Source of the DNA: Ascidia mentula
Taxonomy: Eukaryota > Chordata > Ascidiacea > Phlebobranchia > Ascidiidae
Assembly (NCBI GenBank): GCA_947561715.1
Contig: OX387205.1
Span: 2,609,001-2,673,000 of the forward strand
Length of the DNA stretch: 64,000 bases
Direction of reading: 5' to 3'
The first letter of the stretch is position 1. Every line of letters starts with the position of its first letter. The notes beneath the pieces are model-generated. The model worked only from the letters and a program-made list of their open reading frames with translations, did not search any database and was not told the origin of the DNA. This document shows positions 2,216 through 44,938 of the stretch, in pieces. The translations under genes were made by a program, and so were the position numbers.

Positions 2216-4359
2216 TCAAGATCCAGATGGACCGGGTAATTCGGAACTGTCAACAATTCTTACGGATATTAGTGGTTGTTTCTTCACAGATACATATTTC
2301 TTCTTTTGAAATTTTTGGGATCCGGACTGGCTGAGTAACCCAGTATCAGCTCCACCTCCAGAAGACTGGTCTTCTTGCCCAGTATCAGCTCCACCTCCAG
2401 ACAACTGTTCTCCTTGCCCAGTACCAGCCCCACCGCTTGAGGTCTGGCCTCTGTTTCTTAACTGTTTTCTCAACGTTTCTAGTTCAGGAAGGAATTTTGC
2501 AATCTTTTTATCCTTGTTGGTCTTGACAAAACTATTGTTAAAAAATTCAGTCAAATCTTCATCTGTAATATCTAAGAAAAAATGGAAAAAACCAACATCA
2601 CCCAATACTGCAGCCTTGGGCATATTATCTTTTAACTTAGTTTTCATATTTTGTTTTTGTTTTTCAACACCCTTCCGCAGTTTTGTAAACGTTTCCACAC
2701 CCCTGACTTTTCCACTTCGTTTGCAAAGCAACAAAAATAAGTCCAAGCTACAAGTTATTGCACTTGAACAAGGACAAAAAATTGTGCGAAGGATAAAAAT
2801 GTTCAGACATAGGATACAAGACAACAACACGACCTGTACGCAAGTTATGACAATTAGTGTGTTCCCAAAGTAAGCTGTTTAAATGACTGGAGTTGGGACA
2901 CGCTGTTTTCTTGAGGTTCGGGGACAAGCTCGAAGTTTGGAATACTCTGGCGTAATTTTCCAGCAATTTGGCTGACTGTTACTATCTGACGCAATGCAAG
3001 AAGTTGCCTGTACGCATCAACCATTCGCACATGGTCTACAAAGTCCGTTACCACTCTTTCCCCCATGTCGTTAGGTTTATCACTAAGATTCACTAGCTGC
3101 AATTCCGCTATTTTGTTTCTTAAAGATTCAAGACGTTCTATAATATTAAGTTTATCAATATTATTTGAAAAGAATTCAAAATCTGGCAGACTTCCACCCC
3201 AAAATCCAAAAAATGATTTTCCAAGTTTTGATAAATCTACTTTCTTTAATTTTTCAAAAGTTTGGAAAGCATGACACTGCCAGTAAGCATGATCAGAGCC
3301 ACAGTTGTCAGGGTGCAAGTTGTTTAATTTCAGTAGTTCCTTACTGTTTTTCAGCAACTTTATCAGAAAAATCGCAGCAACTTGGATTTCTTTAAGGATG
3401 CGAAACTTTAACTCAATTGGGAGGCAATCTTTCTGCGTCAGTTTGCGGATGTTTTCAATTTGATATAATGCTAAAAGTTGTTTCAAACTGCCAGCTAACT
3501 TATCACATGTTTTGGCTTCGAAACTGCTGTGCAGCGCTGTTTTTGGTGGTAATCTTAATGTCTCAATGGCAGGATGCTTGTGTTCATCACAAGTCACGTT
3601 TATTACACTCTGCAAAGAAAAGGACTTGTTTTACTCTGAAACGGCTAGTAATTCCAAATTTTCTGTGGAAGGTTGTTTGAGGATATCTTCTTTTGTTCGG
3701 TTTCTTGGGGGATCTAATATCGTTTTAAATTCAAAATCATAAAAATTTAAGGCATAATGGCTCACAACGTCATTTAGCAGTTGTTTTTGAAGCGCTGGTG
3801 TCGAAGGAATGCCAGTGTTTTTCCATTTACCAAACTCTCTTGCAAAGCGTCTACATCTTTGTTTTTCCTGCGCAGTTAAGTCTGATACGTCGGATGAGTC
3901 AGGAGATGTTACTATAGTGATAAACTCATCAACAGACTTCTCGAAATTTGAAACAAGTTCAAACAGCTTATGAAACTGGGCAATCTCATTTCTTACAGTG
4001 GAAATATGTTCCCATAGGTTCATTGCTATATACAAGCAAGTGGTGAGCAGCACAGAGATCCACCAGGAGTTCGACTGAAAGAAATTTGCCTGTGCTTTGC
4101 ATTGTTCATTTACAAACAACATTTTGGGGTTTGTGAATGATTCAACATTGCTTCCATTGGCAAGAAAACAGTGCGATAGGGTAACATCACTTTCTTTACA
4201 AGGAAAACAATGCAATGAGTTGCTATCAGTTTTGTACAGCAAAAATATATTGGAAGCGACTATTGCCAACATAAAGTACTTACGCATGGTTTCCCACCAT
4301 GGTGTCAAGCCATAAGTTGACAACAAGTTGCTTGTAAGGTAAATATCACTCAGTGACAT
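2216..4359 (-). pseudogene. A1: broken copy of the LRRC8/pannexin-like membrane protein family
   Basis: Compared with intact A4 (34105-36372), this copy has three lesions. A CAA-to-TAA nonsense codon lies at 3631-3633, after about 243 residues. A one-base loss near 2878-2882 shifts the frame just before the third membrane helix. A deletion of roughly 140 bp near 2870 removes TM3, the second extracellular loop and the start of TM4. The N-terminal part (PWW motif, TM1, CFPC and SHC cysteines, TM2) and the C-terminal tail ending in PGPSGS are still readable. The start is placed at the conserved Met of MSLSDIY; longer frames begin at TTG codons. The nonsense codon and the frameshift are shared with A3, so they predate the duplication or were copied by gene conversion. 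Confidence 0.8.
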
Positions 4360-5692
4360 AACGAGTAAAACTTGCCGTTCCTCAAATAGTTTAATGCAGA
4401 TAAACAAGCATCACAAAATTACTTTGCCATCTAAATCTAATAATCTTTTCTTTCAAATTTCTCTAATTCAGCATTAATGCTTCTGCAAATGAAGTAAAAT
4501 GGTATAGTGTTTGTTTCGTCCAATAGATTTTTATACACATCACAGATAAACCAACATACACAACAATCTTGATTACATAATGTGAAGACGACAAACCTAA
4601 AATCACGTCATTCGGAAACGTCCAATCGTATGCAAGTTTTTCTTTGTGTATTTTTTCTTTGGCTCAACTGTTTTGTAACTCATTTAAAAAAACGCGTTGT
4701 GCATATATCCCCCTTTTCAGTCCGTTTCATTTTGTCATTAACACAAATTTGTGTGTACCTGTATTTACAATTTAGTAATAAAGTGTAGGCATTGTTACTT
4801 GCGTTATTGTGGCCTGCAAACCTTGACAAACCAATTACCTAACCCCGGTAACAATCCTCACCAGAAACCCTTGCAAAATACAAACGGGTGAGAACAAATT
4901 ACTACTACTAACTCATGCTGCCTTTGAATCGGCCACGAGGCTAACACTGTTGCTGGTACAGCACTTCGCGCTTTACTAGCATTCAAAGAACTTCTTCCCA
5001 TCAAGTCGCCAAGTCTCGTTGAGCTTGAAGAATTTAACTCGCTGTGTCTGAAACGTTATTGAAGAATTTGGTTTCCCAGCCCAGTGGTCCAGCGGGTGAA
5101 AAGTTGTATGTTCAGCAGCCCAAAGCCTATGGTATTGAATGTACTTCGTAGACACATGTTTTTGACAAATCGCTATTCGGCTTGAGTGTCGCTGTGAATT
5201 AAAATGAGATGCATATCTTTTAAGTATCTATTGAACAAAAGAATAAATTCGCCTTACCCTGCGTTTGTTGACAAATTTATGGTCGACATTGATACAAGAG
5301 TAGAAGATCCAAATATAAATTAAGTATGCGCTTGCGTGATTTTTTTTCTGCAAACCCATCCAAACCTGAGCTGAATTTCCAAACACCGTTCAGCACCAAT
5401 AGTGACAAAACAAAATTGCTTCCAAAATTCACTAAAAAGCATTAGCAACTGCCGACGCTTTTGTGTGCATTCATCCGTTATAAAAGCGTGATACCAACCA
5501 TGCGCCTTGATAAATTGCAACTCGTGTAACTCTGCGAAAGAATGGGTTTAGAGGGAGTTATAAACCCATTCTATTGGGAGATGGAAATAGGAACGCTTGT
5601 TTAATAAAAATGGTTAACAGCATTAGTAAAGTGAGGTCATTTTTCCGACATGAAACAATAGACAAGCTGTAAGTTTCCGACACATACTGAAA
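4360..5692. other. Duplicated 5' flank between A1 and B1
   Basis: There is no convincing gene. From about 4749 the sequence matches 10934, 27180, 31969 and 36764 onward and, more distantly, 55331 onward. It therefore belongs to the amplified unit rather than to one gene. A short frame at about 5205-5430 resembles the 80-codon frames at 11382 and 37217, but here it is broken by a one-base loss near 5319. It is AT-rich and any promoter of A1 should lie in the first few hundred bases, but I see no motif firm enough to mark. Confidence 0.6.
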
Positions 5693-5966
5693 CTAATACA
5701 ATCTATGTATAAGCTGCAGACAGATGGCCACTGTTTCGACCTAAAAGGTCTCATCAGTGCAGCTGGTGTGACTATCAGACGACTTTGCTGACCAAACGGC
5801 CAAGCAAAGACTTCCACTTTGTGGTGACTATACAGTCACCGTCATCCGTTGGGCACCAAACTAGGTGCAACCTTACGGAGCAAACAAGGTGGAAACACTA
5901 CGGCCAAGCAAGCTCAACCAATAGTTATTGGCTTTATTATTGGCTCCACATTGCTAATACAATCTA
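5693..5966 (-). mobile_element. Hammerhead-ribozyme-bearing short retroelement, full-length copy with target duplication
   Basis: An insert of 248 bp (5706-5953) is flanked by a perfect 13-bp direct repeat, CTAATACAATCTA, at 5693-5705 and 5954-5966. The paralogous sites in the B2 flank (about 12174-12186) and the B3 flank (about 37960-37972) lack the insert and keep one copy of the target, so the boundaries are defined by empty sites. Read on the minus strand, the element starts near GTGGAGCCAA, contains hairpins such as GGTGACTGTATAGTCACC and a CTTTGCT...AGCAAAG stem, and ends in a type I hammerhead ribozyme followed by GCAGCTTA. It has no reading frame of note. A closely related copy lies on the plus strand at about 57889-58143. 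Confidence 0.85.
5712..5764 (-). ncRNA. Type I hammerhead ribozyme (fully paired)
   Basis: On the minus strand the order is: stem I 5' strand AGCTGCA (5758-5764), CTGATGA, stem II GACCT/AGGTC with a TTT loop, GAA, stem III ACAG/CTGT with a TGGCCAT loop, the unpaired C before cleavage, and stem I 3' strand TGCAGCT (5712-5718). All core nucleotides of the hammerhead (CUGANGA, GAAA, UH) are present and all three stems pair without mismatch. It should self-cleave after the C if transcribed in this orientation. Confidence 0.88.
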
Positions 5967-6325: not shown

Positions 6326-6589
6326 CAGTGACGTAGCCAGGCTGAAAAGTTTGGTGGGAGTCCAATCTTAGATGGGTTTAAAGAGAGTTGAAGTTTTTGG
6401 TTCAAAACATTGCTTTACGAAGCAGAATGATTTGGCGCGCTTAGCGGCGGGGTCTGTGGCCCCTGTGGCCCCTTTGGCCCCTTTGGCCCCTTTGGCCCCT
6501 TTGGCCCCTTTGGCCCCTTTGGCCCCTTTGGCCCCTTTGGCCCCTTTGGCCCCTTTGGCCCCTTTGGCCCAAACCTAGCTACGCCATTG
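6326..6589. mobile_element. hAT-like MITE with expanded 9-bp satellite
   Basis: The termini CAGTGACGTAGCCAGG (6326) and the reverse complement of CAATGGCGTAGCTAGG (ending 6589) match the CAGTGGCGTAGC-type inverted repeats common in hAT elements. The flanking octamers GTCGAGTG (6318-6325) and GTTAAGTA (6590-6597) agree at 5 of 8 positions, consistent with a decayed 8-bp duplication. No transposase is encoded. The copies at 12545 and 38330 keep the left end but are deleted from inside the satellite. Confidence 0.65.
6463..6570. repeat. (GGCCCCTTT)n tandem repeat
   Basis: About eleven to twelve copies of a 9-bp unit lie near the right end of the MITE. The paralogous MITEs at about 12676 and 38461 have only two to three units, so the array expanded or contracted after the duplications. 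An open frame through it (APLAPL repeats) is a by-product of the unit length. Confidence 0.9.
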
Positions 6590-8449: not shown

Positions 8450-10669
8450 TTATGTTTTCCTGACCAATGGATCTCGTTCAGGCTCTTCTATTTCCATAGC
8501 AACAGGTTCGAATCCTTTTTTGATTTTTTTGGTCTATTTTTCTTTTTGTGCTTGTGAGTTGTATCCTTTAACTGGCCGCTCGCTTGAGGTGTTTTTTTAT
8601 TTCCTAACCTTTCCAGTGCTGGTAGGAACTTTGCAATCTTTTCATCCTTGTGGTTCTTGACAAATTTACTGTTCAAAAATTCGCTGATATCTTCATTGGT
8701 GATATCAAGGTAAAAATGGAAAAAATCCAAATCATTCATTGATGCAGCAGAAATCATACCTTTTTTTAATTTTATGATTATCTCCAGTGCTCTTTCTTCA
8801 ATATTTTTACCAAGCGTTCTAAAAATTTCTTCTTCCTTAGTCTTTCCGCTTTGTTCGCAAAGCAACAAAATCAATTCCAAGCTACAAGTTATTGTGCTCG
8901 AACAAGGACCGAATTTTGCAGAAAGTACACCGCAAATCAGACATATCACAAGTGACAAACAAACCTGGACAACAGCAATAATATACATTATGTTAAAAGA
9001 GCTGTATATTCACGTGTATGTCATGTTGCAAGTAAATGCCTCACTTGTGCTTTGGTATGTTAATAATGAGATGTATACAACAGCTAGTATGAGTAAAATT
9101 GCAAGACTGGCCGCGTTTCTAAAAAAATAAGCATTTTGAAAGTCATGTTGGAGCTGTCTTCTGTTCTGGTCAAAAGTATGAGCTAATTTTCTAACTGTTA
9201 CAATCTGTTGCAGTGCAAGAAGTTGTTTATATGCTTCAACCATTCGGACACGATCTACTAAATTCTGATCTGTGTTAGTAAAATCTTCAGTGTCATAAAT
9301 TTTACTTAGCTTTTTGAGTTGGTCTTCTGGGATAAGATCTCTTATTGTTTCAAGATAAGTAAGGTGTTTATCCAAGTTTTGCATTATATCAACGAAATTT
9401 ACTGTTTGGTCTTTCTTTCTACCAAGCCAACCAAATCCATTTCTTTTCTGACTAATTTGTTCCAGTTTCTTCTTGGTTTCATTTTTTCGTTGTTCTCGGT
9501 AGTTGTGCAACTGTTCTCCTGCTACCTTATATTCCTCAAAATTTGGTGAAAAAGTTTTAGGACAACCACGCAATGTTTCTAAACTTTGAAGTTCTGTTTT
9601 TACATAACTTTCTTAAGCAAATTGCATCAGCTTGTATGATTTCAAGAATGTGAAGCTTTTTTTCTACTGATTCAACCATTCCCTCATGTAGCTTGCGAAT
9701 ATTCTCTATCTGGCGCAAAGCCAGAAGCTGCCTCAAGACTGAACATGACTCACGACTACGAGAGATTCTGTGTAGTTTATTAGGATTGCGCAGTGCTCTA
9801 TGAGGTGGTAATGTTAATGTCTTAGTATCAAGAGGTGGTTCGCTTTCGTCATTAAATTGTGTTGTACTCTTTCTTGGCGGTGATGATGATGTCTTAATTT
9901 TAGCAGGTGGCTCGTTTTGGTGATTGCAAACTTTTGTGATCAATGTGTCCAACTCAAATGACATATCTCCTTCCAACACATCCAGCAATTCCAGATTTTC
10001 TTCAAGAGGTTCTCCAACTAAATTATTCACTGAGGTAAATTCGTTCCCGTTATGTCCGTTTGATATAAGTAATGGATAATTAAAGTCGAATTCAGGAAAC
10101 GCATCATAATGGCGCACAACATCCTTGAGCAACTTCTGAAGGTCTTTCTGCCAAACAAGATCAGTTTTCTGCGGTTCGAAAAATGCCTTTAAAAAACTTC
10201 CACACCTTTTTTTCTCTTGGAAAGCTAATTCTGGTATGTCGGACGAGTGAGGAGATGTAACGACAGTGATAAATTCATTTACCGAACCGTCGAAACTAGA
10301 AACAAGTTGTAACAGTTTATGCAGCTTGGCAATCTCATTTCTTACACTAGGAATGTGTTCCCAAAAGTTCATTACTATATACAAGCAAGTGGTGGACAGT
10401 ACACAAATCCACCAAAAATTCAGCAGCAGAAAATTTGCCTCGTTTTTGCATTGTACGTTTACAAATAACATTTTGGAATTTGTAAATGATTCACCGTCAC
10501 TTTCGTTGAGGGGAAAACAATGCATAACTCTGTTGTCCGTTTTGTACAGCAAAAATATGTTTGAAGTGACTGTTGCTATCATATTATATGAGCGTACGGT
10601 TTCCCACCATGGTGTCAAGTTATAGGATGACAGCAAGCTGTTTTTTGTATAAATATCAATCAACGACAT
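8450..10669 (-). pseudogene. B1: broken copy of the LRRC8/pannexin-like family, B type
   Basis: Relative to intact B3 this copy has a 5-bp deletion near 9595 that shifts the frame after about 360 residues, a TGC-to-TGA nonsense change at 9010-9012 that replaces the second cysteine of the second extracellular loop, and a further frameshift near 8520 in the tail. The ancestral stop would be at 8450. The N-terminal PWW motif, TM1, TM2 and most of the cytoplasmic loop are intact. The start is the Met of MSLIDIY at 10669; upstream codons open only from TTG. Confidence 0.8.
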
Positions 10670-12544
10670 ATCCACAGAATAGAACAAACGGACACTGATA
10701 ACTTGCCAGGCTGGTTGAGTGTCTGAGTGTCTAAATCTGTTTCACAAACTTTTCCTTTTTTATTTCTGATTTAGCACCACTGCTTCTGCAAATACAAAGC
10801 GCAAAATGACAAAATTCTGCTCTAAAACAAATCTTTGATGTACCTAGTTATGCAACAAACTGGCTAGAATCATGTAGATACGTCCAAGTTTCCCCATCGC
10901 ACTATACGCATAACAATACGTGTGACAGTTGGTGTGTACCTGTATTTACAATTTAGTAATAAAGTGTAGGCATTGTTACTTGCGTTATTGTGGCCTGCAA
11001 ACCTTGACAAACCAATTACCTAACCCCGGTAACAATCCTCACCAGAAACCCTTGCCAAATACAAACGGGTGAGAACAAACTACTACTAACTCATGCTGCC
11101 TTTGAATCGGCCACCAAGCTAACACTCTTGCTGATACAGCACTTCGCGCTTCACTGGCATTCAAAGAACTTCTACCAATCAAGTCGACAAGTCTCGTTGA
11201 GCTTGAAGAATTTAACTCGCTGTGACTGAAACGTTATTGAAGAAATTTATTTCCCAGCCCAGTGGTCCAGCGGGTGAAAAGTTGTATGCTCAGCAACCTA
11301 AAGGCTATGGCATTGAATGTACTTCGTACACACATGTTTTTGACAAATCGCTATTCGGCTTGAGTGTCGCTGTGAATTAAAATGAGATGCATATATTTTA
11401 AGTATCAATTGAACAAAAGAATAAATTCGCCTTACCCTGCGTTTGTTGACAAATTTATGGTCGACATTGATACAAGAGTAGAAGATCCAAATATAAAATT
11501 ATGTATACGCTTGCGTGATTATTTTTCTGCAAACCCATCCAAACCTGAGCTGAATTTCCAAACACCGTTCAGCACCAATAGTGACAAAACAAAATTGCTT
11601 CCAAAATTCCCCAAAAGGCATTAGCAACTGCCGACGCTTTTGTGTGCATTCATCCGTTATAAAAGCGTGACACCTGCACGTCAGACTGCTTTAGATTGTT
11701 TGGTAGAAGATCGCATATCAGAATGTCTATTTAGGTTTCCAACGGGAAATGCCTTTCTTGGTCCTGTTTCATTGCTGGTTACAGAGCAACCGGTAATGCA
11801 CAAGTATCATTACGGTGGAATCAGTGTTACTAGTGCCAATTTAGGCATTCTTTAGTGTGATTTTGGGTAAAGCTATTTGAAAGTTTTAACTTTACGAAAG
11901 TTGAACAAGCCGGCATCTCATCTACATATTTAAGTCCAAATATAACTTCGGGGCAATAACAAAATACCAACCATGCGCAAAATACCAACCATTGTAACTG
12001 GTGTTATTCTGCGAAAGAGTAGGTTAGAGGGAGTTTTAAATTTTCCATTCTGTTGGAAGATGGAAATAGGAACGCTTGTTCAATGAAAATGGTCAACAGC
12101 ATTGCTAAAGTGAAGTCATTTTTCCGGCATGAAACAATACACAAGCTGTAAATTTCCGACACATACTGAAACTAATACAATGTAGTTAGCTTGGTAAAAC
12201 CTATACCAATTATATCGTGAAAAACTGTCTGTCGATTGTCAGGGCAAGGATTGCACTCCAACCAGTGTTCCGCATTGGTAGATCGTTTGAAGGTACAAAC
12301 ACGTCTTGCTCGGTTAGGATTTGTTCGGTTAGGTATTTTAGGGGGCGAATTATTGCTGTAAGTGTCGGTTTCAAAAAGCAGTCATTTTTGGTGATGAAAG
12401 ATGCTGTATTATTTTTTTATCATTTTTTCAGTTTTTGGTTTTCTGAGTAAGTCAGATAAACTTTTCGGTTTTTTAAGTGCATCTGCGTGCCGAGAAAAAC
12501 TGTTATTTCTCTTTTATGACAGCAATAGCTGAAGTGGTCGAGTG
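10670..12544. other. 5' flank of B1 running into the B2 unit
   Basis: From 10934 the sequence repeats the block beginning at 4749 and at 36764. An 80-codon frame at 11382-11624 is conserved with 37217-37459 (starts MRCI, ends in a basic tail). It may be a relic exon or chance, and I do not recognise it. The empty site of the hammerhead element is at about 12174-12186. Confidence 0.5.
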
Positions 12545-12855: not shown

Positions 12856-12933
12856 TGTGGCGACCGAACTGTAGTGTTCGCCTGTGCATTAAAGCGTGCT
12901 ATTTTTTTCCCCGTGTCGCGATTGCCGCCTTAT
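12856..12933 (+). mobile_element. 5' LTR fragment of the gypsy remnant, copy 2
   Basis: The first 78 bp of the LTR (TGTGGCGACCGAACTG...) are present, then the sequence jumps at an ATTGCCGC direct repeat to the integrase region. The same internal deletion is present at 38641-38718. Confidence 0.7.
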
Positions 12934-13528
12934 TGCCGCGACAGCTTTTCACCCACAAGCGAACGGCTTGGTGGAGGGATTTCATCGCCATTTAAAGAGC
13001 GCGTTGATGGCGCGTCTAACTGACTCCAATTGGTTGGACGAGTTACCGTGGGTGTTACTTGGTGTTCGTACCGCACCCAAAGATGACCTGCAGGCCTCTT
13101 CCGCGGAGCTTGATTACGGTACTACTTTGACCGTTCCTGGTGATTTTATTGCCCCTGCAGGCGACTCCACCGTCAAGTTTTTGCCGTCATTGCGGGACAC
13201 ATTGCAACGAATTTTGCGGCAGCCTATGTCACGTCACGCCAACCTTCGGCCGTCCGTCCCTTCCTCGTTGAGAACCAGCCCATATGTGTTCGTTCGTCGC
13301 GACGTTCATACACCTCCGCTGACCAGACCATACGATGGCCCGTACAAGGTGTTGCTAGCGTCGGACAAAACTTTCACTTTGGACATTGGAGGTCGTTCAC
13401 AAACGATTTCGATCGACCGCCTTAAGCCGGCTCACGTCGACATTACGGTACCAGTTCCAGTTGCCGTACCCCCAGCGAGAGGCAGACCGCGGCGCAATGT
13501 ACGACCACCGCAACGCTATTCAGCGTGA
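12934..13528 (+). pseudogene. Ty3/gypsy integrase C-terminal remnant, copy 2
   Basis: The open frame is uninterrupted here. It contains FHPQANGLVEGFHRHLK with the catalytic Glu, the LPWVLLGVRTAPK stretch and the GPY/F-type module. No start codon or upstream domains belong to it; the amino-terminal residues are read from the LTR fragment. About 95% or more identical to copies 1 and 3 by eye. Confidence 0.82.
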
Positions 13529-14594: not shown

Positions 14595-16293
14595 CTAGAC
14601 CAATGGATTTCGTTCAGGCTCTTGTTCGCACCATTTCAAGTTTTTTGATCTAGTTTTCTTTTCGTGCTTGTGCGTTGTATCCTTTAACTGGCCGCTCGCT
14701 TGAGGTGTTTTTTTATTTCCTAACCTTTCCAGTGCTGGTAGGAACTTTGCAATCTTTTCATCCTTGTTGTTCTTGACAAATTTACTGTTCAAAAATTCGC
14801 TGATATCTTCATTGGTGATATCAAGGTAAAAATGGAAAAAACCCAAATCATTCATTGATGCAGCAGAAATCATACCTTTTTTTAATTGTATGTTTATCTC
14901 TAGTGCTCTTTCTTCAATACTTTTACGAAGTGTTCTAAAAATTTCTGCTTCCTTAGTCTTTCCGCTTTGTTCGCAAAGCAACAAAAACAAATCCAAGCTA
15001 CAAGTTATTGTGCTCAAACAAGGACCGAATTTTGCAGAAAGGACACCGCAAATCAGACATATCACAAGTGACAAACAAACCTGGACAACAGCAATAACAT
15101 ACATTATGTTAAAAGAGCTGTATATGCACGTGTATGTCTTGTTGCAAGTAAGTGCCTCACTTGTGCTTTGGTATGTTAATAATGAGATGTATACACCAGC
15201 TATTATGAGTGCATTTGCAAGACTGATCGCGTTTCTAATAAAGTAAGCATTTAGAAAGACATGTTGGAGCTGTCTTTTGCTCTGGTCAACGACTACATTA
15301 CTCTCAGGTTCTTGAAAAGTATGAACTAATTTTCTAACTGTTACAATCTGTTGCAGTGCAAGAAGTTGTTTATATGCTTCAACCATTCGGACACGATCTA
15401 CTAAATCCTGATCTGTGTTTGTAAAATCTTCAGTGTCTGTAAAATCTTCAGTGTCATAAATTTTACTTAGCTTTTCTAGTTGGTCTTCTGGGATAAGATC
15501 TCTTATTGTTTCAAGATAAGTAAGGTGTTTATCCAATTTTTGCATGGTATCAACGAAATTTACTGTTTGGTCTTTATTTGTACCAAGCCAACCAAATCCA
15601 TTTCTTTTCTGACTAATTTGTTCCAGTTTCTTCTTGGTTTCATTTTTTCGTTGTTCGAAGTAGTTGTGCAACTGTTCTCCCGTTACTTCATATATCTCAT
15701 CAATATTTGGTGAGAAAGTTTTAGGAAAACCACGCAATGATTCTAAACTTTGAAGTTCTTCACTGTTTTTACATAACTTTATTAAGCAAATTGCATCAGC
15801 TTGTATCATTTCAAGAATGTGAAGCTTTTTTTCTACTGATTCAACCATTCCGTCATTTAGCTTGCGAATATTCTCAATCTGGCGCAAAGCCAGAAGCTGC
15901 CTCAAGACTGAACATGATTCACGACTACGAGGGATTCTGTGTAGTTTATTGAGATTGCGCAATGCTCTATGAGGTGGTAATGTTAATGTCTTAGTATCAA
16001 CAGGTGGTTCGTTTTCGCCATTAAATTGTGTTGTACTCTTTCTTGGCGGTGATGTTGATGTCTCAACTTCAGCAGGTGGCTCGTTTTGGTGATTGCAAAC
16101 TTTTTGTTATCAACGTGTCCAACTCAAATGACATATCTCCTTCCAACACATCCAGCAATTTCAGATTTTCTTCATGAGGTTCTCCAACTAAATTATTCAC
16201 TGAGGTAAATTCGTTCCCGTTATATCCATTTGATATAAGTAACAATAATGGATAATTAAAGTCGAATTCAGGAAACGCATCATAATGGCGCAC
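14595..16293 (-). pseudogene. B2: 5'-truncated, frameshifted B-type channel-like copy
   Basis: The N-terminal region (PWW, TM1, first extracellular loop, TM2) is missing: homology to B1 and B3 stops abruptly at 16293, where inverted flank sequence begins. A one-base insertion in a T run near 16101 shifts the frame. The remaining 455-codon frame (14595-15962) holds the QLLALRQI motifs, TM3, the second extracellular loop with both cysteines, TM4 and the conserved cytoplasmic domain. The tail ends early (PERNPLV) relative to B3. Confidence 0.82.
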
Positions 16294-19984: not shown

Positions 19985-20110
19985 TCTACGTTGAGAGGCC
20001 GCAGACAGGATGTACACAGTGTTTCTACCTGGAGGGTCTTATCAGTGCAGCTGTTGACTGTGGCACTGCACTAGCTTTTACACTAACATGCACACAGATT
20101 ACTACTTTGT
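19985..20110 (-). mobile_element. Decayed hammerhead-bearing element
   Basis: On the minus strand the sequence retains AGCTGCA followed by CTGATAA (CTGATGA in intact copies), an ACC/AGGT-like stem II, AGAAAC and a TGCGGCC in place of TGCAGCT. The core G8 change would inactivate the ribozyme. It lies immediately after the degenerate PLE. A plus-strand 93-codon frame through it is probably chance. Confidence 0.55.
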
Positions 20111-23921: not shown

Positions 23922-26789
23922 TCAAGATCCGGATGGACCGGGTATTTCGGAACTGTCAACATTTCTTTCGGATATTAGTGGTTGTTCTTCACTTGCTTCA
24001 CCTTCTACAGGGATAACAACATGTTTCTTCTCTTGAAATTTTTGGGATCCGGACAGGTTGAGAAACTCGACAGTAGAAGTCGAACGTTCCATTTCACTTT
24101 CTCCCACAACATCAGATGTATATCCTCCACCGCTTGAGGACTGGCCTCCTTGCCCAATGGTAGCCCCACCGCTTGAGGACTGGCCTCCTTGTCCAATAGC
24201 AGCCCCACCGCTTGAGGACTGGCCTCCTTGCCCAATAGCAGCCCCACCGCTTGAGGACTGGCCTCCTTGCCCAATAGCAGCCCCACCGCTTGAGGACTGG
24301 CCTCCTTGCCCAATAGCAGCCCCACCGCTTGAGGACTGGCCTCCTTGTCCAATAGCAGCCCCACCGCTTGAGGACTGGCCTCCTTGCCCAATAGCAGCCC
24401 CACCGCTTGAGGACTGGCCTCCTTGCCCAATAGCAGCCCCACCGCTTGAGGACTGGCCTCCTTGCCCAATAGCAGCCCCACCGCTTGAGGACTGGCCTCC
24501 TTGCCCAATAGCAGCCCCACCGCTTGAGGGCTGGCCTCCTTGCCCAATAGCAGCCCCACCGCTTGAGGACTGGCCTCCTTGTCCAATAGCAGCCCCACCG
24601 CTTGAGGACTGGCTTCCTTGCCCAATAGCAGCCCCACCGCTTGAGGACTGGCCTCCTTGCCCAATAGCAGCCCCACCGCTTGAGGACTGGCCTCCTTGTC
24701 CAATAGCAGCCCCATCGCTTGAGGACTGGCCTCCTTGTCCAATAGTAGCCCCACCGCTTGAAGACTGGCCTCTGTTTCTTAACTGTTTTCCCAACGTTTC
24801 TAGTTCAGAAAGGAATTCTGCAATCTTTTCATCCTTGTTGGTCTTGACAAAACTATTGTTAAAAAATTCAGTCAAATCTTCATTTGTAATATCTAAGAAA
24901 AAATGGAAAAAACCAACATCACCCAATATTGCAGCCTTGGGCATATTATCTTTTAACTTAGTTTTCATATTTTGTTTTTGTTCTTCAACACCCTTCCGTA
25001 GTTTTGTAAACGTTTTCACGCCCTTGCTTTTTCCACTCTGTTCGCAAAGAAACAAAAATAAGTCCAAGCTACAAGTTATGAAACAAAAAATTGTGCAAAG
25101 GCCAATAATGTTCAGATATAGGATAAAAGACAACAACGCGACCTGTACGCAAGTTATGACAAACAGTGTGTTGTATGAGTTGTCGACACACTTGTAGGAT
25201 CCATCGCACACAAATTCTGCACTTGGGTTTAGCAATACAATTGAGTATGTTACAACTGCAATCGTTGCAACGATAAAACTTGCTATGTTTCTCCAAAAGT
25301 AAGCTGTTTTAAATGACTGGAATTGGGACAAGCTGTTTTCTTGAGGTTCGAGGGAAAGCTCGAAGTTTGGACTACTCTGGCGTAATTTTCCAGCAATTTG
25401 GCTGACTGTTACTATCTGACGCAATGCAAGAAGTTGCCTGTACGCATCAACCATTCGCACATGGTCTACAAAGTCCGTTACCACTCTTTCCCCCACGTCG
25501 TTTGGTTTATCACTAAGATTCACAAGCTGCAATTCCGCTATTTTGTTTCTTAAAGATTCAAGACGTTCTATAATATAAAGTTTATCAATATTATTTGAAA
25601 AGAATTCAAAATCTGGCAGACTTCCACCCCAAAATCCAAAAAATGATTTTCCAAGTTTTGATAAATCTACTTTCCTTAATTTTTCAATAGTTTGGATTTC
25701 ATGACACCGCCAGTAAGCATGATCAGCGCGTACGGTGGCATGGTGCAAGTTCTCTAAAGTCAGTAGTTCCTCACTGTTTTTTTGCAACTTTATCAGAAAA
25801 ATCGCAGCAACTTGGATTTCTTTAAGGATGCGAAACTTTAACTTAATTGAGAGGCCATATTTCTGCGTCAGTTTGCGGATGTTTTCAATTTGATATAATG
25901 CTAAAAGTTGTTTCAAACTGCCAGCTAACTTATCACATGTTTTGGCTTCGAAACTGCTGTGCAGCGCTGTTTTTGGTGGTAATCTTAATGTCGCAATGGC
26001 AGGATGCTTGTGTTGAGCACAAGTCACGTTTATTACACTCTGCAAAGAAAAGGACTTGTTTTGCTCTGAAACGGCTAGTAATTCCAAATTTTCTGTGGAA
26101 GGTTGTTTGAGGATATCTTCTTTTCTTCGCTTTCTTGGGGGATCTAATATCGTTTTAAAATCAAAATCATAAAAATTTAAGACATAATGGCTCACAACGT
26201 CATTTAGCAGTTGTGTTGGAAACTCTGGTGTCGAAGGAATGCCAGTGTTTTTCCATTTACCAAACTCTCTTGCAAAGCGTCTACATCTTTGTTTTTCCTG
26301 CGCAGTTAAGTCTGATACGTCGGATGAGTCAGGAGATGTAACTATAGTGATAAACTCATCAACAGACTTCTCGAAATTTGAAACAAGTTCAAACAGCTTA
26401 TGAAACTGGGCAATCTCATTTCTTACAGTGGAAACATGTTCCCATAGGTTCATTGGTATGTACAAGCAAATGGTGAGCAGCACAAAGATCCACCAGAAGT
26501 TCGACTGAAATACATTTGCCTCTGCTTTACATTGTTCATTTACAATTAACATTTTGGGGTTTGTGAATGATTCAACATTGCTTCCATTGGCAAGTAAACA
26601 GTGCGATAGGGTAACATCACTTTCTTTACAAGGAAAACAATGCAATGAGTTGCTATCAGTTTTGTACAGCAAAAATATATTGGAAGCGACTATTGCCAAC
26701 ATTAAGTGCTTACGCATGGTTTCCCACCATGGTGTCAAGCCATAAGTTGGCAACAAGTTGCTTGTAAGGTAAATATCACTCATTGACAT
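23922..26789 (-). CDS. A2: LRRC8/pannexin-like channel protein without LRRs, long repeat tail (955 aa)
   Basis: This is an uninterrupted single-exon frame. The start is the Met of MSMSDIYL, the first ATG; the longer frame opens only at a TTG. Order: PWWETM motif, TM1, first extracellular loop with CFPC, SHC and a later EQC, TM2, a cytoplasmic loop of about 380 residues with two QLLALxQI motifs, TM3, second extracellular loop (FVCDGSYKC), TM4, then a cytoplasmic module (GDVGFFHFFLDIT) that resembles the post-TM4 region of LRRC8. No leucine-rich repeats follow. Instead about sixteen 13-residue repeats (GGQSSSGGAAIGQ) precede a conserved PGPSGS end. A pore-forming role is inferred from family resemblance only. 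There is no intact neighbour on either side; A3 next to it is dead. Confidence 0.78.
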   Translation of the reverse strand: MSMSDIYLTSNLLPTYGLTPWWETMRKHLMLAIVASNIFLLYKTDSNSLHCFPCKESDVTLSHCLLANGSNVESFTNPKMLIVNEQCKAEANVFQSNFWWIFVLLTICLYIPMNLWEHVSTVRNEIAQFHKLFELVSNFEKSVDEFITIVTSPDSSDVSDLTAQEKQRCRRFAREFGKWKNTGIPSTPEFPTQLLNDVVSHYVLNFYDFDFKTILDPPRKRRKEDILKQPSTENLELLAVSEQNKSFSLQSVINVTCAQHKHPAIATLRLPPKTALHSSFEAKTCDKLAGSLKQLLALYQIENIRKLTQKYGLSIKLKFRILKEIQVAAIFLIKLQKNSEELLTLENLHHATVRADHAYWRCHEIQTIEKLRKVDLSKLGKSFFGFWGGSLPDFEFFSNNIDKLYIIERLESLRNKIAELQLVNLSDKPNDVGERVVTDFVDHVRMVDAYRQLLALRQIVTVSQIAGKLRQSSPNFELSLEPQENSLSQFQSFKTAYFWRNIASFIVATIAVVTYSIVLLNPSAEFVCDGSYKCVDNSYNTLFVITCVQVALLSFILYLNIIGLCTIFCFITCSLDLFLFLCEQSGKSKGVKTFTKLRKGVEEQKQNMKTKLKDNMPKAAILGDVGFFHFFLDITNEDLTEFFNNSFVKTNKDEKIAEFLSELETLGKQLRNRGQSSSGGATIGQGGQSSSDGAAIGQGGQSSSGGAAIGQGGQSSSGGAAIGQGSQSSSGGAAIGQGGQSSSGGAAIGQGGQPSSGGAAIGQGGQSSSGGAAIGQGGQSSSGGAAIGQGGQSSSGGAAIGQGGQSSSGGAAIGQGGQSSSGGAAIGQGGQSSSGGAAIGQGGQSSSGGAAIGQGGQSSSGGAAIGQGGQSSSGGATIGQGGQSSSGGGYTSDVVGESEMERSTSTVEFLNLSGSQKFQEKKHVVIPVEGEASEEQPLISERNVDSSEIPGPSGS
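24133..24768 (-). repeat. 39-bp in-frame minisatellite in A2
   Basis: About 16 copies of a 39-bp unit encode GGQSSSGGAAIGQ. Units are nearly identical with scattered substitutions (D for G, P for S, S for G, T for A). The unit has no stop in several frames, which creates long spurious frames on both strands. A1, A3 and A4 carry only two to three diverged units (TGQGEQLSGGGAD), so the array expanded in A2 alone. Confidence 0.95.
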
Positions 26790-29321
26790 AACGAGTAAAA
26801 TTTGCCGTTCCTCAAATAGTTTAATGCAGATAAACAAGCATCACAAAATTACTTTGCCATCTAAATCTAATAATCTTTTTTTTCAAATTTCTCTAATTCA
26901 GCATCAATGCTTCTGCAAATCAAACAAATGGTTTAGTGTTTGTTTCGTCCAATAGATTTTTATACACATCACAGATAAACCAACATACACAACAATCTTG
27001 ATTACATAATGTAAAGACGACAAACCTAAAATCATGTCATTCAGAAACGTCCAATCGTATGCAAGTTTTTCTTTGTGTACTTTTTCTTTGGCTCAACTGT
27101 TTTGAAACTCATATAAAAAAACGCGTTGTGCATATATCCCCCTTTTCAGTCCGTTTCATTTTGTCATTAACACAAATTTGTGTGTACCTGTATTTACAAT
27201 TTAGTAATGAAGTGTGGGCATTGTTACTTGCGTTATTGTGGCCTGCAAACCTTGACAAACCAATTACCTAACCCCGGCAACAATCCTCACCAGAAACCAT
27301 TGCAAAATAAAAACGGGTGAGAACAAATTACTACTACTAACTCATGCTGCTATTTGAATCGGCCAACGAGGCTAACACTCTTGCTGATACAGCACTTCGC
27401 GCTTCACTGGCATTCAAAGAACTTCTACCAATCAAGTCGACGCAATATTAAAATGTCACACAGTTTTTGCTTTTTGTTGCAAACTCCTTAACAATCAAAT
27501 AAAGCACGCCTGCTTAATTTTGCTACAAAAGATAATATTAATAAGGATATGGCCTCCGCAGTTTATACAGACGAATTGTGTCGTTGGACGTAATGAGTGA
27601 ATTTTTGAACCCCGTTGCGTTCTTCTCATATTATTTACGGGCAAACCTGCTCCATTGCAAGCAATTTGTAAAGTATTTATAGACGTATTGCAAACTTTAA
27701 CGCTTTAATTGGTGTGCAGGGGTTACCCATGCATTAAGTACGATTTATGAGCGCCGTCTCCACCGATGGGTATTTTTGCTTTGCATCGCGTTGGTCGTTG
27801 TGACGTTTTTACGCTTAAATAATTAATTAATCTGTCATAAGGGCTGAAATATCAAATAGTGTTGGCAAAGTGGTATTATACCATTCGTCTTTATTTTTAC
27901 TACGACGAATTGTGTAATGAGTAAATCACTCGACCAGCTTTATGGTTTTCGAACCAAAAGTGTAGTATTTTTAGCTTGTTTCTGGTAGCGTGATTAAATG
28001 CCTAATACTTTACTTTTTCTGGTATCAGGCAACAGTGAACCTTCGACGAGATTTACAAAATGCTGACCAAGATCACAACACTTTTCTTTACTACATACGG
28101 TAGTTGCTGTATATGAGTTTCCCTAGCCTTTTATTGCACCGTAATGGGGATTCTGGAATGCCAAAGTATATTTTCTGTTTGACACTTTGGCAATACATAT
28201 CGCATGCCCACTAACAGCACATTATAAACTGCAAGAGGAACTTGTCCTCTTTGGATATTTTTAAGTACTTTATCCATGCCTACCTCTGCAGACATTACTG
28301 CCAATGTACATTTAATGCTTCAGGTGTGTTGTTATAATGATAGGCCACTACTGCTTCATAGAAAAAGCTTAGCAAAGCGACAGACAAAAAGGAAATGACA
28401 AAGCCACCGGATCGAGCATGTGAACAGCATTTGGCAACACCGAACTGCGTTAACCTAGCATTACCACAGACGTCGCTAGTGACGTAACAGTATGGTTATT
28501 TTGCACACATTTATGATAATAATTATCTAGTTCTTGCATTTCTCCCCCGCCAATTCGTTAGCCGAACACAAAACAGGCTTTTAACGGGACAAAGCCGAAC
28601 ACAATATACTTGTTCGGCGAAGAATAGATGAACAAAACACAATTAACCACACGAAAACATATACATACATACGTTTGTGAAAAGAACAACACACAATAAT
28701 GCAAACAGGAAAATACAAACATGCAAATTTACTAGAATAACCTTCTGGGTCCTTCCTTACATTATTTCACAGCAAACCAGAGGGGGGAACGTGAATATTT
28801 TGCTACTTTCTATCGCAATTTAAAGGACAGTTTTAGCTTTTTATTAGGGGTGTTAAGTGATCTGATCAGTTATTGGTTGTGTCGAAGGGTTTGATTGAGT
28901 GTCACGGCGAAAAATATGTAACCAAAACACATGTTTTGGATTTATTTTGTTGTGAATCACTTGCCTGTGTGTTCTATATGCCAAATATTAGCCTAAATCT
29001 GGGTCTTAACAATATTATATATGATCGATCAGAAATCCTATTTGATTAACGCGTTTAACATATAAGATCGCATGTGAGTTCTAATTGTTGTGTTTCCTAA
29101 CCTGACTTTGAATGGAAACCCGATGCATACACTACACAAATATTTATTTTATCACGATCAATTTTGGATACACTTTTAACACACGCAATGATACCAACGC
29201 GAAACTAAGTGAATTTGAAGACACCCAATCGCTTACTGAGCTGCGCCGACATATTTTTGGACATATTTTGAAAACACTATACACTGCGTTTATCGCTGGT
29301 GACGTAACCATTTGGTTATAT
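26790..29321. other. A2-A3 intergenic flank
   Basis: About 26790-27430 is the 5' flank of A2. From 27180 the sequence is one member of a 4.79-kb tandem duplication (partner from 31970). Within 27430-28530 a 63-codon minus-strand frame that is open at 32777-32968 is interrupted by a TAG near 28118. I do not recognise it. Confidence 0.5.
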
Positions 29322-31584
29322 TCAAGATCCAGATGGACCGGGTAATTCGGAACTGTCAACAATTCTTACGGATATTAGTGGTTGTTTCTTCACAGATACA
29401 TATTTCTTCTTTTGAAATTTTTGGGATCCGGACTGGCTGAGTAACCCAGTATCAGCTCCACCTCCAGAAGACTGGTCTTCTTGCCCAGTATCAGCTCCAC
29501 CTCCAGACAACTGTTCTCCTTGCCCAGTACCAGCCCCACCGCTTGAGGTCTGGCCTCTGTTTCTTAACTGTTTTCTCAACGTTTCTAGTTCAGGAAGGAA
29601 TTTTGCAATCTTTTTATCCTTGTTGGTCTTGACAAAACTATTGTTAAAAAATTCAGTCAAATCTTCATCTGTAATATCTAAGAAAAAATGGAAAAAACCA
29701 ACATCACCCAATATTGCAGCCTTGAGCATATTATCTTTTAACTTAGTTTTCATATTTTGTTTTTGTTCTTTAACACCCTTCCGCAGTTTTGTAAACGTTT
29801 CCACACCCCTGACTTTTCCACTTCGTTTGCAAAGCAACAAAAATAAGTCCAAGCTACAAGTTATTGCACTTGAACAAGGACAAAAAATTGTGCGAAGGAT
29901 AAAAATGTTCAGATATAGGATACAAGACAACAACACGACCTGTACGCAAGTTATGACAATTAGTGTGTTGAATGAGTTGTTGACACACTTGTAAGATCCA
30001 TCGCACACAAATTCTGCACTTGGGTTTAACAATACGTATATTAAGTATATTATAACTGCAATCGCTGCAACGATAAAACTTGCTATGTTCCTCCCAAAGT
30101 AAGCTGTTTAAATGAATGGAGTTGGGACACGCTGTTTTCTTGAGGTTCGGGGACAAGCTCGAAGTTTGGAATACTCTGGCGTAATTTTCCAGCAATTTGG
30201 CTGACTGTTACTATCTGACGCAATGCAAGAAGTTGCCTGTACGCATCAACCATTCGCACATGGTCTACAAAGTCCGTTACCACTCTTTCCCCCATGTCGT
30301 TAGGTTTATCACTAAGATTCACAAGCTGCAATTCCGCTATTTTGTTTCTTAAAGATTCAAGACGTTCTATAATATTAAGTTTATCAATATTATTTGAAAA
30401 GAATTCAAAATCTGGCAGACTTCCACCCCAAAATCCAAAAAATGATTTTCCAAGTTTTGATAAATCTACTTTCTTTAATTTATCAAAAGTTTGGAAAGCA
30501 TGACACTGCCAGTAAGCATGATCAGAGCCACAGTTGTCAGGGTGCAAGTTGTTTAATTTCAGTAGTTCCTTACTGTTTTTCAGCAACTTTATCAGAAAAA
30601 TCGCAGCAACTTGGATTTCTTTAAGGATGCGAAACTTTAACTCAATTGGGAATCTTTCTGCGTCAGTTTGCGGATGTTTTCAATTTGATATAATGCTAAA
30701 AGTTGTTTCAAACTGCCAGCTAACTTATCACATGTTTTGGCTTCGAAACTGCTGTGCAGCGCTGTTTTGGGTGGTAATCTTAATGTCTCAATGGCAGGAT
30801 GCTTGTGTTCATCACAAGTCACGTTTATTACACTCTGCAAAGAAAAGGACTTGTTTTACTCTGAAACGGCTAGTAATTCCAAATTTTCTGTGGAAGGTTG
30901 TTTGAGGATATCTTCTTTTGTTCGGTTTCTTGGGGGATCTAATATCGTTTTAAATTCAAAATCATAAAAATTTAAGGCATAATGGCTCACAACGTCATTT
31001 AGCAGTTGTTTTTGAAGCGCTGGTGTCGAAGGAATGCCAGTGTTTTTCCATTTACCAAACTCTCTTGCAAAGCGTCTACATCTTTGTTTTTCCTGCGCAG
31101 TTAAGTCTGATACGTCGGATGAGTCAGGAGATGTTACTATAGTGATAAACTCATCAACAGACTTCTCGAAATTTGAAACAAGTTCAAACAGATTATGAAA
31201 CTGGACAATCTCATTTCTTACAGTGGAAATATGTTCCCATAGGTTCATTGGTATGTACAAGCAAATGGTGAGCAGCACAAAGATCCACCAGGAGTTCGAC
31301 TGAAATACATTTGCCTCTGCTTTACATTGTTCATTTACAAACAACATTTTGGGGTTTGTGAATGATTCAACATTGCTTCCATTGGCAAGAAAACAGTGCG
31401 ATAGGGTAACATCACTTTCTTTACAAGGAAAACAATGCAATGAGTTGCTATCAGTTTTGTACAGCAAAAATATATTGGAAGCGACTATTGCCAACATAAA
31501 GTACTTACGCATGGTTTCCCACCATGGTGTCAAGCCATAAGTTGGCAACAAGTTGCTTGTAAGGTAAATATCACTCAGTGACAT
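29322..31584 (-). pseudogene. A3: broken A-type channel-like copy
   Basis: Three lesions: the same CAA-to-TAA nonsense codon as A1 (at 30856-30858), a 4-bp deletion near 30648 (GGGAATC where A1 has GGGAGGCAATC), and the same one-base loss in GTTTAAATGA before TM3 (about 30106). Unlike A1 it keeps TM3, the second extracellular loop and TM4. It is dead unless stop readthrough and frame corrections occur. Confidence 0.85.
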
Positions 31585-34104
31585 AACGAGTAAAACTTGC
31601 CGTTCCTCAAATAGTTTAATGCAGATAAACAAGCATCACAAAATTACTTTGCCATCTAAATCTAATAATCTTTTCTTTCAAATTTCTCTAATTCAGCATC
31701 AATGCTTCTGCAAATCAAACAAATGGTTTAGTGTTTGTTTCGTCCAATAGATTTTTATACACATCACAGATAAACCAACATACACAACTTGATTACACAA
31801 TGTAAAGACGACAAACCTAAAATCACGTCATTCAGAAACGTCCAATCGTATGCAAGTTTTTCTTTGTGTACTTTTTCTTTGGCTCAACTGTTTTGAAACT
31901 CATATAAAAAAACGCGTTGTGCATATATCCCCCTTTTCAGTCCGTTTCATTTTGTCATTAACACAAATTTGTGTGTACCTGTATTTACAATTTAGTAATA
32001 AGGTGTAGGCATTGTTACTTGCGTTATTGTGGCCTGCAAACCTTGACAAACCAATTACCAAACCTCGGTAACAATCCTCACCAGAAACCCTTGCAAAATA
32101 CAAACGGGTGAGAACAAATTACTACTACTAACTCATGCTGCCTTTGAATCGGCCACGAAGCTAACACTCTTGCCGATACAGCACTTCGCGCTTCACTAGC
32201 ATTCAAAGAACTTCTACCAATCAAGTCGACGCAATATTAAAATGTCACACATTTTTTGCTTTTTGTTGCAAAACTCCTTGACAATCAAGTAAAGCACGCC
32301 TGCTTAATTTTGCTACAAAAGATAATATTAATAAGGATATGGCCTCCGCAGTTTATACAGACGAATTGTGTCGTTGGACGTAATGAGTGAATTTCTGAAC
32401 CCCGTTGCGTTCTTCTCATATTATTTACGGGCAAACCTGCTCCATTGCAAGCAATTTGTGAAGTATTTATAGACGTATTGCAAACTTTTAATTGGTGTGC
32501 AGGGGTTACCCATCCATTAAGTACGATTTATGAGCGCCGTCTCCACCGATGGGTATTTTTGCTTTGTATCACATTGGTCGTTGTGACGTTTTTACGCTTA
32601 AATAATTAATTACTCTGTCATAATGGCTGAAATATCAAATAGTGTTGGCAAAGTGGTATTATACCACTCCTCTTTAATTTTACTACGGCTAATTGTGTAA
32701 TGAGTAAATCACTCGACCAGCTTTTTGGTTTTCGAAACAAAAGTGTAGTATTTTTAGCTTGTTTCTGGTAGCGTGATTAAATGCCTAATACTTTACTTTT
32801 TCTGGTATCAGGCAACAGTGAACCTTCGACGAGATTTGCAAAATGCTGACCAAGATCACAACACTTTTCTTTACTACATACGATAGTTGCTGTATCTGAG
32901 TTTCCCTGCCCTTTTATTGCACCGTAATGGGGATTCTGGAATGCCAAAGTATATTTGCTGTTTGACACTTTGGCAATACATATCGCATGCCCACTAACAG
33001 CACATTATAAACTGCAAGAGGAACTTGTCCTCTTTGGATATTTTTAAGTACTTTATCCATGCCTACCTCTGCAGACATTACTGCCAATGTACATTTAATG
33101 CTTCAGGTGTGTTGTTATAATGATAGGCCACTACTGCTTCATAGAAAAAGCTTAGCAAAGCGACAGACAAAAAGGAATTGACAAAGCCACCGGATCGAGC
33201 ATGTGAACAGCATTTGGCAACACCGAACTGCGTTAACCTAGCATTACCACAGACGTCGCTAGTGACGTAACAGTATGGTTATTTTGCTCACATTTATGAT
33301 AATAATTATCTAGTTCTTGCATTTCTCCCCCGCCAATTCGTTAGCCGAACACAAAACAGGCTTTTAACGGGACAAAGCCGAACACAATATACTTGTTCGG
33401 CGAAGAATAGATGAACAAAACACAATTAACCACACGAAAACATATACATACATACGTTTGTGAAAAGAACAACACAAAATAATGCAAACAGGAAAATACA
33501 AGCATGCAAATTTACTAGAATCAACTTCTGGGTCCTTCCTTACATTATTTCACAGCAAACCAGAGAGTGAACGCGAATATTTTGCTACTTTCTATCGCGA
33601 TTTAAAGGACAGTTTTAGCTTTTTATTAGGGGTGTTAAGTGATCTAATCAGTTATTGGTGGTGTCGAAGGGTTTGATTGAGTGTCACGGCGAAAAATATG
33701 TAACCAAAACACATGTTTTGGATTTATTTTGTTGTGAATCACTTGCCTGTGTGTTCTATATGCCAAATATTAGCCCTAAATCTGGGTCTTAACAATATTA
33801 TATATGATCGATCAGAAATCCTATTTGATTAACGCATTTAACATATAAGATCGCATGTGAGTTCTAATTGTTGTGTTTCCTAACCTGACTTTGAATGGAA
33901 ACCCGATGCATACACTACACAAATATTTATTTTATCACGATCAATTTTGGATACACTTTTAACACACGCAATGATACCAACGCGAAACTAAGTGAATTTG
34001 AAGACACCCAATCGCTTACTGAGCTGCGCCGACATATTTTTGGACATATTTTGAAAACACTATACACTGCGTTTATCGCTGGTGACGTAACCATTTGGTT
34101 ATAT
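31585..34104. other. A3-A4 intergenic flank
   Basis: The 5' flank of A3, then 1.1 kb of spacer (32230-33310) nearly identical to 27430-28530, then the 3' flank of A4 (from 33309). A 63-codon minus-strand frame at 32777-32968 (SKYTLAFQNPHYG...CSKEKCCDLGQ) could be an exon relic. There is no family assignment. Confidence 0.5.
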
Positions 34105-44720: not shown

Positions 44721-44938
44721 CACAAAGTTTTTTCCAAACTTGAACCACATATAAGTCTGTGTAAAACAGAAATCTGTGCGAACTTTAATGATTATGTGTG
44801 AACAGGGCCACCGCCTGTTATTTTTGGTTACATATTTAAGTTGAAATACTACACGAAATCGTAGCGTTAATCGCACAGATTTCTATGTTACATAGGCTTA
44901 TATGTGGATCAAGTTTGGAAAAAACTTGTGCAGTTAAG
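44721..44938. repeat. Imperfect inverted repeat, MITE-like
   Basis: Arms of about 65 bp (44725-44790 and 44862-44935) share CACAAAGTTTTTTCCAAACT-type ends and an AGAAATCTGTGCGA inner block, around a 70-bp spacer. No coding capacity and no clear target duplication. It could be a hairpin MITE. Confidence 0.5.

Follow-up and report, generated by a model that had tools for sequence, protein, structure and literature searches.

The window analysed here is a stretch of 64,000 nucleotides of the Ascidia mentula genome (contig OX387205.1, positions 2,609,001 to 2,673,000 of the forward strand), and feature coordinates refer to it unless otherwise indicated. It harbors a tandemly duplicated family of long-ORF genes, located at positions 2216-4407, 9557-10687, 14595-15962, 23922-26837, 29322-31632, 34105-36429, 40370-42655, and 46587-48988. 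Probing Pfam with two members of this family did not retrieve any match, and for one member no protein homologue with E <= 1e-3 was found among the best 7,997 candidates by common words; the 971-aa member at 23922-26837 possesses a long run of GQGGQSSSGGAAI-like repeats near its C-terminal part. Furthermore, two near-identical ORFs of 210 aa (12896-13528 and 38681-39313) resemble, by eye, the tail of a Ty3-like integrase, and the first of them did not retrieve any Pfam match. The long hairpin at 44724-44927, which gave a sub-threshold match with MIR1435 (E = 0.012), is probably an inverted-repeat element.

The window starts with a two-armed Penelope-like element (PLE, positions 1-1408), whose ORF (235-1149) matches the GIY-YIG domain. 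The left end of this element, of the type referred to below as A', is located just outside the window (locus L099), and the right one, of type B', at about 1408. It is flanked by a 15-bp target duplication, the right copy of which (TATATTATTATCTAG) spans positions 1409-1423, with the left copy in L099. A pattern match revealed a minimal hammerhead-like core on the plus strand (1293-1323), with the stems assigned by eye.

A second mobile element lies at 5706-5953, as an insert of 248 bp between two perfect copies of the 13-bp sequence CTAATACAATCTA (5693-5705 and 5954-5966); neither this sequence nor its reverse complement was found elsewhere in the window by sequence match. Two paralogous regions without the insert (11964-12485 and 37800-38270) match the joined flanks of the insert at 90.6% and 88.9%, respectively, and each of them has a single copy of the target, one base off CTAATACAATCTA. 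According to the joined-flank comparison, these empty targets are CTAATACAATGTA at 12172-12184 and CTATTACAATCTA at 37958-37970. The original prediction of a 248-bp insert with a perfect 13-bp duplication, and of empty sites in the B2 and B3 flanks, was therefore confirmed; of its interpretation, which was supported in part, the absence of the insertion from two paralogues holds. Just to the right of the insert, a 9-bp minisatellite with the unit CTTTGGCCC is located at 6436-6588.

The insert embeds a type I hammerhead ribozyme on the minus strand (5713-5763), with a predicted cut between 5719 and 5718 in the minus-strand reading. All core positions agree exactly, and the three stems (I, II, and III) are paired over 6, 4, and 4 bp; the ribozyme class had been correctly recognized, the motif lying on the minus strand. 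A perfect motif of the same design was never found in 20 Mb of random sequence searched on both strands; the plus strand of the window contains one. The Rfam scan of the window did not retrieve anything for the hammerhead of the insert at E <= 1; probing with the array of locus L040 returned Hammerhead_3 (20.6 bits) and RAGATH-1 (17.8 bits), both below the gathering score, and no match to Hammerhead_1 up to E = 10. The isolated 51-mer has an alternative minimum-energy fold that is 2.3 kcal/mol better than the hammerhead. Judging from the motif, self-cleavage is likely.

The presence of further copies was checked using the 27-nt ribozyme core with up to three mismatches. This search retrieved 3,252 sites (1664 forward and 1588 reverse) from the 195.8 Mb genome, and none when the pattern was read backwards as a control; an exact match of the 27-mer was not found in viral_contigs. 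The anticipated genome-wide copies are hence present, and so are tandem multimers, target duplications, and 5' truncation. The array in L040 consists of 285-bp units arranged head to tail, and the reference unit is 286 bp long, with a GC content of 47%; the repeating unit is thus of about 286 nt, head to tail, and not of 248 bp as previously assumed. Each L040 unit harbors an ORF of about 85 aa with a TTG start, spanning the ribozyme, which we take as due to chance. Neither a reverse transcriptase (RT) nor a GIY-YIG endonuclease of its own was found in the array, whose largest ORF (113 aa) is made of unit repeats.

The type I hammerhead, a tandem unit within the range of about 170-400 nt, a GC content under 50%, and target duplications exceeding 4 bp are those of metazoan non-LTR retrozymes; the insert is such a retrozyme, i.e., a non-autonomous mobile element. 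Of the earlier description as a retrozyme- or SINE-like parasite, the first term holds; nothing SINE-like was found. The SINE reading was set aside on the basis of ARAGORN, which did not detect any tRNA in L040, and of the mapped ends, none of which shows a 3' tail that is A-rich or simple. Another copy of the retrozyme (94.5% identity over 220 bp) is located on the plus strand at 57918-58137, and additional pieces are found at 59986-60093 (93.5%), 19998-20056 (79.7%), and 55200-55238 (84.6% to the insert).

We numbered the unit from the base following the predicted ribozyme cut (m1). The insert turned out to be made of two arms: a retrozyme copy of about 220 bp (5706-5925), whose RNA sense is the minus strand, with the outer end at m13 (site A) and the inner end at about m78; 9 filler bases (5926-5934), reading TTATTGGCT and by eye repeating m24-32; and an inverted arm of about 19 bp on the plus strand (5935-5953), with the outer end at m40 (site B) and the inner end at about m22. 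The insertion with its target duplication stands as originally described; the two-armed build was absent from that description, in which the short inverted arm at the right end had been overlooked. Moreover, the element ends near the predicted cut and not at it, the cut lying 13 nt inside the left edge of the insert.

Other insertions were fetched from the genome. The loci are not a random sample, as they comprise the best matches to the window copy and the exact 27-nt core places on contig C1. Twelve loci overlapping others were left out of the target-duplication count, and duplicated insertions were removed (four from the arm count and five from the end mapping). Six insertions, L052 among them, were left out of the arm-variant, junction, and cut-crossing counts, and the complex loci L021 and L048 out of the last two. 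An exact target duplication of at least 9 bp was found in 54 out of 85 insertions, compared with 1 out of 251 mismatched flank pairs; the mode is 12-13 bp and the duplications are 79% A+T. The ends anchored by a duplication fall on two sites: 41 out of 86 on site A (m10-19, i.e., 10-19 nt past the ribozyme cut) and 41 on site B (m40-49, 40-49 nt past it). The remaining four are both ends of L052, whose duplication, included in the duplication and end counts, is false and belongs to a palindrome, and one end each of L035 (m36) and L086 (m182). The original prediction expected ribozyme positions to coincide with element ends; taken literally they do not, which by its own terms would count against it, since 82 of the 86 ends are displaced from the cut. 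Such ends are set by the start of reverse transcription, and their position therefore supports retrotransposition. When the reference unit is folded as a circle (-90.0 kcal/mol, z = -2.7 compared with 100 dinucleotide shuffles), m12-60 are predicted to form one stem-loop, the 5' side having A at its base and the 3' side containing B.

The two-armed layout is shared by many insertions, with the antisense arm on the left and the sense arm on the right in the fetched loci, so that both outer ends correspond to RNA 3' ends. After removal of duplicated insertions, 43 out of 81 were scored as two-armed by the script, 39 of which were called A+B, that is, with one outer end at each site; by eye, L042 (duplication GTTGAAAACT) is A+B as well. 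The three others are L052, which is A+A and lies inside a palindrome that takes in its own flanks, so that its arrangement represents a later duplication; L049, without a duplication and with one end at m270; and L086, with an internal left start showing a 7-nt match. In a second search, which gives coordinates (best 40 of 2,217 candidates), 31 of the 33 two-armed clusters are A+B. Seventeen of these clusters lie outside the fetched loci, and 16 are A+B, the exception being C2:16187859 (outer end m274). Altogether, joining the 43 fetched loci and the 17 clusters among the best 40 of 2,217 candidates, 56 out of 60 two-armed insertions are A+B, and none except L052 is A+A or B+B. If the two sites were used equally and independently, the probability of 56 out of 56 would be near 1e-17, a figure given as an illustration rather than as a formal test. 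By eye, L063 and L064, both called one-armed, have hidden, site-B-like arms of 8-11 nt opposite an A end; the remaining one-armed insertions start at A or B, except for L010, one end of which is at neither.

In L1 twin priming, the second DNA strand also primes reverse transcription, producing an inverted arm, with microhomology, and this second start occurs at a variable internal place. A LINE enzyme acting in this way, with the second strand priming at any short internal RNA match, would give similar arms, duplications, and microhomologies, and L086, with its internal start and 7-nt match, fits it. Nevertheless, we consider it highly improbable for this family: the second start is not variable as in L1 but falls, in 56 out of 60 insertions, on whichever of the two fixed sites the first did not use, the mapped ends have no A-rich tail, and the PLEs of the same genome follow the A+B pattern. 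It may also be argued that the inverted units are old structures copied whole, with A and B as inherited ends. Plain segmental copies with common flanks do exist (L012/L013, L017-L019, L080/L081, and L090/L092); however, arm lengths and inner junctions vary between insertions with different flanks, which implies that the arms were formed anew and leaves inheritance scarcely credible.

The bases surrounding the starts were analyzed next to those of the RNA. The last three target positions adjacent to the start match the RNA beyond it in 56, 65, and 68% of cases, compared with 35, 34, and 37% upon re-pairing, and the pairing observed over the last six positions was reached in none of 500 permutations. 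This excess is what one would predict for a cut DNA end that primes through a few paired nucleotides. At the inner side, an overlap between the arms of at least 2 nt was found in 21 out of 42 simple junctions (about 16% is expected for random joins of retrozyme sequence), and extra bases occur in 13 out of 42; the overlaps are approximate, being taken from local alignments.

The same junctions bear on self-priming, proposed for PLEs in 2013 (PMC3846280), in which the cDNA or the antisense template snaps back and copies itself into head-to-head repeats. This would account for the head-to-head arms, and L042, with equal inner coordinates and a 21-nt overlap, might be such a case. Yet the inner ends are generally not mirrored, lying within 12 nt of each other in 6 out of 42 junctions (about 3.7 expected by chance), and self-priming gives no reason for the A+B outer ends of 56 out of 60 insertions. 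The unmirrored junctions largely refute it for the retrozyme family, and we regard it as very unlikely.

Concerning the template, 104 out of 115 arms starting at A or B cross the predicted cut, and L003, scored as non-crossing, passes it by 3 nt. Twenty-eight of the 115 arms are longer than one unit and nine longer than two, the longest (1680 nt) covering nearly six units. A clear enrichment of run-off at the cut was not observed (4 out of 115 inner ends at m1-5, compared with 2.0 expected). Arms running through the cut imply a template that is continuous there, i.e., a circle or an uncut multimer. A linear multimeric transcript, all other steps being those of PLE-driven insertion, would yield cut-crossing arms and arms longer than one unit just as well; the Anolis PLE takes unprocessed RNA in vitro (PMC11167929), and the units of L044 differ by 6%. 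On the other hand, abundant circular RNAs have been reported for animal retrozymes (PMC7229834), and the units of L039 do not differ at all, although a homogeneous array would give the same result. On account of the abundant circles reported, the circle appears to be the favoured template, and the linear multimer rather unlikely, though a serious competitor.

The two arms of an insertion might derive from the same RNA. At polymorphic positions, opposite arms agree in 164 out of 187 cases within insertions (88%) and in 65% between insertions. Eighteen rare variants, in nine insertions, are common to opposite arms, compared with an average of 1.1 upon permutation and never more than 7 in 1000 permutations; by another rule, rare variants confined to one arm number 113, and those present in both arms 14. 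In L039, the units of both arms show no differences and the nearest other array is 0.8% away. Out of 14 arrays with comparable arms, 5 (L039, L040, L043, L045, and L078) have arms that resemble each other more than they do the nearest other array, one (L047) gives a tie, and in the other eight the arms are not closer; L042, L044, and L061 show 5-8% difference between arms. Mutation after insertion separates the arms, and comparison with the nearest of 17 other arrays is a severe criterion; the evidence being mixed, both arms are likely to come from the same RNA in the youngest arrays and may do so in the rest. As for irregular insertions, units about 6% apart coexist in L044, and L048 consists of four pieces in the order + - + +; RNA switching or nested insertion are possible explanations.

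The retrozyme lacks the proteins for its own movement; RT and GIY-YIG endonuclease are encoded by the PLEs, of which the genome contains at least 135 protein matches, the nearest named protein being from Ciona intestinalis (63%). The minimal hammerhead core pattern was matched in the window PLE, L094, L095, and L098, and not in L096 and L097; by eye, the retrozyme hammerhead differs from it in having a 4-bp stem III with a loop. The 3' copies of the window-type PLE terminate at either of two positions, about 31 bp apart (A' and B'). Fourteen inverted pairs were found for this family: 12 are A'+B' (in one of them the B' end is at query position 276, compared with 258-267 in the others), one, matched only in part, is undecidable, and the last is the query copy itself, with A' on the left and B' on the right. 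In the second family (query L097), 12 out of 12 inverted pairs are A'+B', giving 25 out of 26 overall, with two start sites 31 nt apart. Six of seven short two-armed copies of the second family have exact duplications of 10-14 bp, and in the seventh (L104) the duplication is of 10 bp with one mismatch, by eye; PLE target duplications overall are of 10-15 bp. The short PLE-1 remnant L098, again by eye, has the same two-armed build and a 12-bp duplication. In the third family (query L095), matches stop at query position ~144, and A and B are unreadable because that copy is taken to end there, with the tail out of view.

The A/B region of the retrozyme does not show, by eye, any convincing likeness to those of the PLE families compared, which speaks against the link. 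The two kinds of element agree in how far apart the start sites lie, in the pattern of one site per end, and in the size of the duplications, which points to Penelope enzymes as the vehicle of the retrozyme. Penelope-type insertion is characterized by RT start sites 30-40 nt apart and by head-to-head arms with a tail at a single end, and the retrozyme insertions display both traits. Regarding the genomic arrangement of the PLEs, a diverged retrozyme-like stretch lies, by eye, downstream of a 66%-type PLE in L094 (G000:C73:5774000-5774420), and PLEs form rows on one strand with tens-of-kb spacing at G000:C52 ~19.88-20.50 Mb and G000:C73 ~5.69-5.78 Mb, perhaps carried by segmental duplication.

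Taken together, these counts make it quite probable, on the evidence of sequence comparison, that the retrozyme is moved by PLE machinery through two target-primed cDNAs, one per DNA strand, started from A and B and perhaps both on one circular RNA. In principle, we can depict the following scenario. The ~286-nt unit would be transcribed and processed by its own type I hammerhead, the product being circularized, or else would persist as a multimer that escaped cutting. As read from the insertions, a staggered break of the target gives the duplication, which is AT-rich and mostly of 12-13 bp. One DNA strand starts a cDNA with its end at A, and the other strand at B, about 30 nt further along the RNA, each DNA end pairing with the RNA over 1-3 nt. 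Both cDNAs run along the RNA in the same sense, usually past the position of the ribozyme cut, and their far ends are joined, often at 1-3 nt of microhomology, into head-to-head arms; with one arm missing or tiny, a simple 5'-truncated copy results. The identity of the supplying PLE family, the circular template, and the origin of both arms from one RNA are the less certain parts of this scenario. In a bolder version, two Penelope RTs would simultaneously copy one small RNA, probably a circle made by the ribozyme, each primed by a different strand at its own site (A or B) on one stem-loop; one site per strand would be the defining integration mechanism of endonuclease-bearing PLEs, and retrozymes would be parasites of it. 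We put this version forward tentatively, the balance tipping slightly against it.

Metazoan non-LTR retrozymes, and PLEs as their proposed vehicle, are already known (PMC7229834; PMC7761336), and so is the tail at one end of PLEs (PMC3846280). According to an in vitro study of 2024 (PMC11167929), the Anolis PLE can cut both DNA strands, extends both of them, and starts at two RNA sites bounding the PLE 'tail', with no apparent difference in start site between strands and with a dispensable ribozyme activity; we counted these last two properties against a PLE model with one site per strand. The rule of one A and one B is not stated in the accessible parts of PMC3846280 and PMC11167929, which present self-priming and no strand difference, respectively; those of PMC12910113 hold nothing on this matter, and the word 'inverted' is absent from the main text of PMC7229834. 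Neither the rule nor two-armed retrozymes were found in the accessible open-licence PMC literature, which is weak evidence of absence. As far as searched, three points appear to be new: retrozymes with two arms, the A+B rule as counted in both retrozymes and PLEs, and the reading of one site per strand. The kind of element is known, and the anatomy of its insertions, apparently undescribed, bears directly on the integration of the Penelope class. For the integration route of PLEs, their inverted build, and their single-end 'tail', self-priming was invoked in 2013, and the study of 2024 revealed two start sites and the extension of both strands; thousands of tiny retrozyme copies provide the numbers for choosing between models. 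The retrozyme counts favour a pair of target-primed cDNAs, each with its own strand and its own start site, and turn the proposed movement of retrozymes by PLEs into a signature searchable in any genome.

Lastly, the family can be compared with known systems as they are described in the accessible literature. Plant LTR retrozymes are likewise non-autonomous retroelements bearing a hammerhead, with circular RNA listed as a common trait; they differ in the type III hammerhead, LTRs, PBS, PPT, 4-bp duplications, and a Gypsy partner (PMC7229834, PMC7761336). The closest counterparts are the metazoan non-LTR retrozymes of Cervera and de la Pena (2020, PMC7229834), with which the present family shares the ~170-400-nt unit, the type I hammerhead, the tandem copies, the GC content below 50%, the target duplications longer than 4 bp, and the presence in the same genome of PLEs with minimal type I hammerheads. 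Circular RNA is a feature of those retrozymes, the present family being known from the genome alone, and they are described as tandem repeats, whereas about half of the insertions sampled here are two-armed with fixed A and B ends. With the endonuclease-bearing PLEs (PMC3846280, PMC11167929), the family shares head-to-head arms, with a 31-bp tail at one inverted end in the PLEs, two RT start sites, AT-rich targets, and a type I hammerhead. PLEs extend both strands in vitro, and the pattern of the retrozyme, as read from the genome, is alike.
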